Assembly: GCF_003999195.1 (NCBI RefSeq)
Contig: NZ_RJVR01000309.1
Coordinates: 1-64,000, forward strand
Direction: 5' to 3'
Source of the DNA: Streptomyces soli
GTDB lineage: Bacteria > Actinomycetota > Actinomycetes > Streptomycetales > Streptomycetaceae
Length of the DNA: 64,000 nt
Shown one piece after another: positions 13,233-59,300 of the stretch; position 1 is the first letter of the stretch, and each line of letters begins with the position of its first letter. A program made the position numbers and the translations under genes. Below the pieces are notes generated by a model that did not search any database, had not been told where the DNA came from, and saw only the letters and a list, made by a program, of their open reading frames with translations.

Positions 13233-13892
13233 GTGCAGCACCTCCGTGATGAAGCCCACGACCCCGCCGCCATGCGCAAGCAGTACCGCGCCCAGGGCCT
13301 GGCCGAGGCAGACCTCGCCGCCGATCCGTACACGCAGTTCGCGCACTGGTTCGCCGACGCGGTCAACGGCGGCATCACCGAGCCGAACGCCATGGTCGTC
13401 TCCACCGCGGACCCCGACGGCCGGCCCAGCTCGCGCACCGTGCTCCTCAAGAGCTACGACCACCGCGGGTTCGTCTTCTACACCAACTACGAGTCCCGGA
13501 AGGGCCGGGAACTCGAGGCCAACCCGTACGCCTCGCTGCTCTTCCCCTGGCACCCCATCGCCCGCCAGGTGATCGCCTGCGGCCCCGTGGAGCGCGTCTC
13601 CCGCGAGGAGACCGAGGCTTACTTCCGCAGCCGCCCCCACGGCTCCCGCCTGGGCGCCTGGGCCAGCGCCCAGTCCCGCCGCGTCGCCCGCGAGGAGCTG
13701 GAGCGGGCGTACGAGGAGCTGGCCGCGCGCTACCCGGATGGCTCGGACGTGCCGGTGCCGCCGCACTGGGGCGGCTTCCGGGTCCGGGCGGACCGCGTGG
13801 AGTTCTGGCAGGGGCGGGAGAACCGGCTGCACGACCGGCTGCGGTACGAGAACGGCGACGGAAGCTGGTCCGTACAGCGGCTGGCTCCGTAA
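13233..13892 (+). CDS. pdxH: Pyridoxamine 5'-phosphate oxidase
   Basis: PdxH oxidises pyridoxine or pyridoxamine 5'-phosphate to PLP with FMN and oxygen. 219 aa with a GTG start at 13233. FMN- and substrate-binding segments typical of the family are present: [39 protein letters not shown], then [13 protein letters not shown], and the C-terminal signature [15 protein letters not shown]. It is divergent from citA2 and shares the palindromic intergenic site. Its 3' end is opposed by the small minus-strand RNA unit described below. Confidence 0.95.
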
Positions 13893-13930: not shown

Positions 13931-14021
13931 CGCAGACGACCCGCGGGCTGCTCCCCGGAGCGACGAGCGCTCCGAGCACCGGCCGAACGAATCCGGCGAG
14001 CCCGCGGGTCGGATGACTGCG
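13931..14021 (-). ncRNA. Structured RNA candidate downstream of a 12-codon ORF
   Basis: Nested inverted repeats: CGCAG/CTGCG (13931-13935 and 14017-14021), a perfect 12-bp stem GACCCGCGGGCT/AGCCCGCGGGTC (13938-13949 and 13999-14010), and inside it a perfect 7-bp hairpin CGGAGCG-ACGAG-CGCTCCG (13956-13974) plus a weak CCGG/CCGG stem (13979-13996). Together these make a branched fold. On the minus strand it follows a promoter and tiny ORF and points into the 3' end of pdxH. It may simply terminate both transcripts, but the multi-stem architecture is richer than a terminator needs. Confidence 0.45.
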
Positions 14022-14068
14022 TTGGATTTGGCCCGTCGCGCACAGCGCCACAGGCAAGGTGCGCGGCC

Positions 14069-14107
14069 TTAGCCCGCAGCCACCTCACGCGTCCGAGTGC
14101 TACTCAT
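14069..14107 (-). CDS. 12-aa small ORF with an extended Shine-Dalgarno sequence
   Basis: ATG at 14107 reads MSSTRTREVAAG and stops at TAA (14069-14071). AAAGGAGGTGG at 14116-14126 matches the 16S rRNA anti-SD almost completely, with 8 nt to the start codon, which is unusual for this genome. A consensus-like promoter lies just upstream. The peptide has no obvious function; it could be a leader peptide whose translation controls folding of the downstream RNA. Confidence 0.45.
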   Translation of the reverse strand: MSSTRTREVAAG

Positions 14108-14140
14108 TCTCGGGACCACCTCCTTTCGTGTGTGCTCGAC

Positions 14141-14169
14141 AGCCTAAGAAGGTGTCCCGCGCATCACAA
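14141..14169 (-). promoter_or_regulatory. Housekeeping-type promoter of the small ORF/RNA unit
   Basis: On the minus strand TTGTGA (14164-14169), a 17-bp spacer and TAGGCT (14141-14146) match the sigma-HrdB pattern (TTGACA-N17/18-TAGGAT-like). The predicted transcript start, near 14134, is just before the extended Shine-Dalgarno. The region to 14254 must also carry the promoter of the divergent PAS gene; I could not define it. Confidence 0.55.
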
Positions 14170-59157: not shown

Positions 59158-59173
59158 GGAGGCGAGGCCCTTT

Positions 59174-59300
59174 CCTCATCTTCCCCGCGACGCATTTCGC
59201 CGCGAGACGGAATTGGCACCTTCCCCACCTGGACCTCGCGGTCGGCGGGAGGGTTGCCGGGGCTTCAACGGGCCGTTCCCTCTGCCCCTCTGGATGAGCG
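59174..59300 (-). ncRNA. SAM-I (S-box) riboswitch of thrC
   Basis: On the minus strand the S-box core is plain: P1 5' strand CTCATC (near 59299), CAGAGGGGCAGAGGGAACGG, TGAAGCCCCGGCAACC, AAGGTGCCAATTCC, and P1 3' strand GATGAG (near 59175). All conserved blocks of the class appear in the right order. The last P1 bases lie immediately upstream of the AAAGGG Shine-Dalgarno, 17 nt from the thrC ATG, so translation is probably the step controlled. The rest of the 59301-59505 gap holds the thrC and gpgS promoters. Confidence 0.9.

Follow-up and report, generated by a model that had tools for sequence, protein, structure and literature searches.

A Streptomyces copy of the Ms_IGR-5 small RNA carries a conserved mini-ORF and may be gated by its translation

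The 64,000-nt stretch of Streptomyces soli DNA analysed here (the window) contains, on its minus strand, a short transcription unit that is, by its covariance-model match, a copy of the Ms_IGR-5 sRNA (Rfam RF02471). The element scores 79.7 bits in a cmscan of the 64 kb (gathering cut-off 45, E 5.5e-16) and is present as a single copy in the genome. Comparison with relatives leads us to favour a free-standing, translation-gated sRNA whose peptide is a by-product, a reading to which we assign a probability of about one half. The near-universal occurrence of a mini-ORF behind a strong Shine-Dalgarno (SD) sequence, combined with a changeable peptide, indicates that translation itself is probably what switches the RNA. 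A translated regulatory sRNA was among the options raised in a preliminary description of the unit, and this option is now well supported by the known family, by an ORF that is kept across the phylum and beyond, and by the footprints reported from mycobacteria.

The promoter, the extended SD sequence, the 12-codon ORF and the GC-rich branched stem are all present on the minus strand as first described (Table 1). The mini-ORF consists of the codons ATG AGT AGC ACT CGG ACG CGT GAG GTG GCT GCG GGC TAA. The terminal hairpin P5 is terminator-like and has no U tract in the window copy; several distant relatives finish with a GC stem and a U run. The 3′ strand of P3 is an anti-SD-like CACC in most relatives, and the AAUCC bulge ahead of it, which has no known partner, is conserved in the window and in relatives. 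A promoter of the form TTGnnn-N16-19-TAnnnT lies at a near-fixed distance upstream of the SD sequence in 98 of 98 distinct Streptomycetaceae elements and in 10 of 11 Mycobacteriales-like elements. The Rfam match, the promoter at its near-fixed distance and the ORF conserved in relatives make it unlikely that the unit is noise, as had been argued from its ribosome-binding site. The RF02471 family shares with the window element the 5′ end, the SD-like block and the terminal hairpin; its Rfam entry describes an sRNA gene with a first helix, to which the present analysis adds the ORF and helices P1–P3. Elsewhere in the window, a SAM riboswitch (RF00162, 83.6 bits) is found at 59,173–59,300 on the minus strand.

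Table 1. Features of the Ms_IGR-5 unit, in window coordinates
Feature	Position	Strand	Basis
Promoter −35, TTGTGA	14169–14164	minus	sequence
Promoter −10, TAGGCT, 17-nt spacer to −35	14146–14141	minus	sequence
Predicted transcription start	~14134	minus	
Ms_IGR-5 family sRNA (Rfam RF02471)	14133–13931	minus	cmscan, 79.7 bits, and alignment
SD1, extended Shine-Dalgarno AAAGGAGGTGG, running on into TCC (14115–14113)	14126–14116	minus	
Mini-ORF MSSTRTREVAAG and stop, ATG to TAA, 12 codons	14107–14069	minus	conservation in relatives
SD2, GAGGTGG, second SD-like motif, within the ORF, 8 nt upstream of the stop	14086–14080	minus	
P1 5′ strand, CACG; partner CGTG at 14089–14086	14130–14127	minus	covariation
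P1 3′ strand, CGTG; ORF codon 7 plus the first nucleotide of codon 8	14089–14086	minus	covariation
P2 5′ strand, GTCC; partner GGAC at 14094–14091; start codon in the loop	14116–14113	minus	covariation
P2 3′ strand, GGAC; codons 5–6	14094–14091	minus	covariation
P3 5′ strand, GGTGGCTGC; ORF codons 8–11	14084–14076	minus	covariation
P3 3′ strand, GCAGTCATC; directly before the terminal hairpin	14020–14012	minus	covariation
Conserved AATCC, bulge between the P4 and P3 3′ strands	14028–14024	minus	column conservation
P5, branched GC-rich hairpin, GACCCGCGGGCT...AGCCCGCGGGTC	14010–13938	minus	sequence, Rfam alignment

RF02471 matched 34 of the 35 genus genomes and 117 of the 121 family genomes; in a sample drawn from the phylum it matched 70 of 396. 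R1, a covariance model made for the present analysis from the 5′ domain, matched 148 of the same 396 genomes. One genome (G258) has two strong R1 matches (C207 and C163) and 7% contamination. A pattern scan of named genomes returned many Actinomycetota among the matches listed. The same listed matches include a coherent set of Acidobacteriota loci from Bryobacterales/Solibacter (e.g. L189, L223, L230, L257, L269, L270 and L272), further Acidobacteriota loci (L248, L280, L281 and L284) and, by title, single matches in Tectomicrobia (L292), Eisenbacteria (L232) and Truepera (L202). Only the Eisenbacteria locus reached the Rfam cut-off for RF02471 when eleven loci were tested, so six Acidobacteriota loci among them fall below it. 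Judged by sequence, family members occur in Acidobacteriota and probably in other phyla too, which is likewise new relative to the literature searched. Three loci titled Acidobacteriota or Chlamydiae (L190, L219 and L224) carry actinobacterial-type elements, and these MAGs, going by their titles, may be mis-binned. The pattern scan of viral sequences gave no copies.

The mini-ORF was followed through about 300 relatives, namely 152 Actinomycetota elements, 115 pattern matches among the matches listed and 40 later members. An ORF was counted in the 152 set when a start codon 4–10 nt after GGAGGTGR ran in frame to a stop 8–22 nt after the start of GAGGTG. This window was fixed after inspection of the first loci, the first listing having used a wider start window, and windows and start lists differ slightly among the three sets. 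With ATG, GTG and TTG as starts, 134 of the 152 distinct Actinomycetota elements have the ORF, against a mean of 16.6 and a maximum of 30 for shuffled loops, and with CTG and ATH added the figure is 151 of 152, against a mean of 34.5 and a maximum of 52; as the sequences are phylogenetically related, these shuffle counts are not readable as probabilities. Among the pattern matches listed, 108 of 115 distinct elements have it; the sequences of the seven exceptions show an in-frame ACG in six and an ATG at spacing 11 in one (L244). All 40 loci newly found by R1 have the ORF when eight start codons including ACG and a spacing of 4–11 are used (shuffled, 11.1, maximum 20), and 37 do so with ATG, GTG and TTG only (shuffled, 4.8, maximum 12); R1 was trained on related sequences, and this result is therefore a test on new members that is not fully independent.

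Across members the mini-ORF is 10–17 codons long, and its start codon drifts among AUG and near-cognates between lineages. At the stop position, +15, TAG is found in 184, TGA in 46 and TAA in 21 of 258 distinct elements (the 152 set and the pattern matches listed), and TGG is absent from these 258. One locus (L129) has CAG at the usual stop followed by TAG, which lengthens the ORF by one codon. The check on relatives put forward in the preliminary description was run, and ORF, SD sequence and stem are conserved in them. The mini-ORF appears to be conserved from start to stop in the Ms_IGR-5 family, a feature that is new relative to the literature searched; an ORF in Ms_IGR-5 is described nowhere in that literature, the family's original paper lying outside the search.

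The conserved feature does not appear to be the peptide, which is likewise new with respect to the literature searched. Most members have the C-terminal end E-V-x-x-x-stop, and E-V is found in all 251 elements of Actinomycetota and Acidobacteriota with a stop at +15 (the pattern part among the matches listed). In the same 251 distinct elements, again with the pattern part from the matches listed, GAGGTG is invariant and GAG GTG has no synonymous variant; elements were located by means of GAGGTG, one mismatch at most being allowed, so the apparent invariance is inflated, partly by selection. Within codons 2–4, 10 of 38 single-base differences are synonymous (0.26 versus 0.20 expected), with no clear amino-acid constraint. 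One lineage has its stop at +14, reads the same RNA motif as GG (SGGxxS, then stop) and has its start re-phased along with it. This lineage comprises four loci of the 152 set (L102, L107, L108 and L111), at least two pattern matches (L197 and L206) and seven of the 40 later members (L337, L351, L355, L358, L364, L366 and L367). Start, stop and phase are thus kept where the peptide is not.

These data bear on a dual-function sRNA of the SgrS/SR1 type, in which the 12-aa peptide would be the product and the RNA may act separately. The ORF conserved in nearly every element and the E-V shared by all 251 members with a +15 stop (pattern part among the matches listed) are in its favour. However, the lack of synonymous variation in GAG GTG is what an RNA constraint predicts, one lineage retains start and stop while reading the motif in another frame, the N-terminal codons are under no clear amino-acid constraint and ORF length is variable; we consider this explanation unlikely. 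Because E-V is kept in most members, a nascent-chain role is possible in those lineages. The peptides of the dual-function sRNAs SgrS/SgrT and SR1/SR1P are conserved and functional. Ms_IGR-5 resembles these systems as an sRNA with a short ORF that is apparently translated, but conservation is stronger for its start, stop and frame than for its peptide.

SD1 is nearly invariant across the aligned relatives and complements the free 3′ tail of 16S rRNA almost completely, over a stretch of about 13 nt that includes one wobble. The sequence of this tail is established knowledge; a scan of the genomes searched for a 16S 3′-end pattern gave no match, perhaps because rRNA is masked. The 9.4-Mb genome contains just two copies of AAGGAGGTGRTCC; the one outside the unit (L178, G000:C261:1929–1941, minus strand) lies upstream of an ORF beginning ATGGCGGACTTC.

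The homologues are transcribed in S. lividans (SLIV_16488; PMC8079986) and, as an sRNA unit, in S. avermitilis (PMC8780764), and in M. smegmatis IGR-5 was detected overlapping ncMSMEG15794c (PMC10454040). Ribosome-protected reads were reported on MS_IGR-5 homologues of M. abscessus and M. smegmatis, with the caution that footprints also arise on classical non-coding RNAs (PMC4974804). In the part of a M. tuberculosis Ribo-seq study that was consulted, annotated sRNAs, not given by name, have coverage consistent with sORF translation (PMC9094748). Ms_IGR-5 has no assigned function in the literature searched. The protected reads of PMC4974804, together with the near-invariant SD1, its 13-nt match to the 16S tail and the near-cognate starts of many lineages, would also be expected of a ribosome decoy or 30S sponge, in which a looped, near-perfect SD captures 30S subunits and a weak start and short ORF release the ribosomes. 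Such a decoy would be the counterpart of 6S/Ms1 RNA on the ribosome side. An open frame with a fixed stop would, however, be superfluous for a pure decoy, and this explanation too seems improbable to us.

Three helices, P1, P2 and P3, are supported by covariation, another feature that is new relative to the literature searched. Covariation over P1, P2 and P3 is 0.295 in 55 diverse sequences (alignment A1), versus 0.133 ± 0.009 after shuffling and at most 0.082 for slid registers. In a second alignment, which includes Acidobacteriota, P1 and P2 give 0.299 versus 0.093 ± 0.015. The core of P3 was recovered by RNAalifold unaided, and when partners were permuted among the sequences, P1, P2 and P3 paired less than observed in every permutation. 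The registers of the helices were picked by eye from the loci, and alternative registers were tabulated. SD1 is located between P1 and P2, in a proposed internal loop, the start codon in the P2 loop and the last ORF codons in P3. The first helix drawn by Rfam (GGUGGU/GCUGCC) has a covariation of 0.180 versus 0.181 shuffled and no two-sided change, which questions the drawn structure and leaves membership, based on score, untouched. A pairing of SD1 with the 3′ strand of P3 was rejected as a candidate: it is possible in 82.7% of cells, and its covariation does not exceed that of the shuffles, SD1 itself hardly varying. Single sequences were folded both freely and with the stop region blocked over the width of a ribosome; only some members (L292 and, partly, L038) gave the P1–P3 fold, which the sequence of the window copy did not. 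By eye, the 5′ CACUG of five Acidobacteriota loci (L189, L223, L230, L248 and L257) seems paired with a distal CAGUG and not with the strand preceding SD2.

Because P1–P3 overlap the ORF, part of the ORF conservation is structural, as a stable sRNA acting by structure only, with an incidental SD and ORF, would predict. Yet the starts agree in frame with the stop despite their place in the P2 loop, whose length varies, and three stop codons are in use. We give little weight to this possibility, or to its variant, a cis-antisense RNA to pdxH. The pdxH ORF occupies 13,233–13,892 on the plus strand and the family match ends at 13,931, 38 nt short of it, so that the two units are convergent, tail to tail, and do not overlap. 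In Streptomycetaceae pdxH is usually convergent, with a citrate synthase gene beyond, and several members have other genes in its place (e.g. L047, L050 and L076). No pdxH was found within the ~1.5-kb flanks of the mycobacterial and deeper copies examined. Mycobacterial copies adjoin other genes (in L032, from their appearance, presumably a pabC-like and an Rv0813c-like gene), and many Thermoleophilia copies lie downstream of a gyrA-like gene, named by translation. The antisense role against the 3′ end of pdxH that was proposed from the window alone is rejected on two counts: there is no overlap, and the linkage is not kept in the relatives examined outside Streptomycetaceae, which have the RNA without pdxH nearby. 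The term antisense would apply only given transcriptional read-through.

A coarse survey of the flanks, partly disturbed by shadow reading frames, found no co-directional downstream gene common to the lineages; some Acidimicrobiia may have one. A classical leader-peptide attenuator, or a transcribed leader of a downstream gene, is the least probable explanation and the leader peptide first proposed a poor fit: the short ORF, strong SD and ensuing ribosome-openable helices are attenuator-like, but the next gene in the window, pdxH, is convergent, the flanks vary by lineage without a shared downstream family, and P3 lies clear of the terminal stem.

For the translation-gated sRNA, we infer the following cycle, including the gating itself and the nature of the targets. 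A 30S subunit would load on SD1, and translation of the mini-ORF would open P1, P2 and P3. A ribosome at the stop codon would mask the 5′ strand of P3 (SD2); AAUCC and the 3′ strand of CACC type would thereby be released and become available for pairing with target mRNAs or for folding back onto SD1. When initiation is scarce, the P1–P3 fold would persist. In this scheme the RNA would report ribosome or initiation status. In attenuators of the trp and erm type, the position of the ribosome on a mini-ORF selects between RNA helices. The proposed selection of helices in Ms_IGR-5 is similar, whereas Ms_IGR-5 is free-standing, is closed by a terminal hairpin and has no shared co-directional gene that we could find.

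The drift of start codons among near-cognates suggests, speculatively, sensitivity to initiation stringency, and on further speculation would point to IF3. The infC gene has a non-AUG start and is autoregulated by IF3. Some Ms_IGR-5 lineages have AUU/AUC/CUG-type starts; unlike in infC, the Ms_IGR-5 start varies by lineage and is AUG in the window. With 6S RNA and Ms1, Ms_IGR-5 would share, in its proposed role, the engagement of a core machine by an sRNA, but the proposed partner here is the ribosome, whereas Ms1 is a mycobacterial sRNA that binds the RNA polymerase core (PMC4191392).

Ms_IGR-5 is a widespread actinobacterial sRNA family and would, in addition, be a conserved regulatory RNA that Actinomycetota and Acidobacteriota have in common. 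Tentatively, and with less confidence than in the gated sRNA itself, the family may constitute a class of free-standing regulatory RNA, spread over several phyla, in which translating the RNA's own mini-ORF is the switch, whatever the peptide, and which senses free ribosomes or initiation stringency. If translation of the mini-ORF is required, a supposedly non-coding RNA depends on the passage of a ribosome, and mutants in the start, the stop and the helices offer a direct test of the family.
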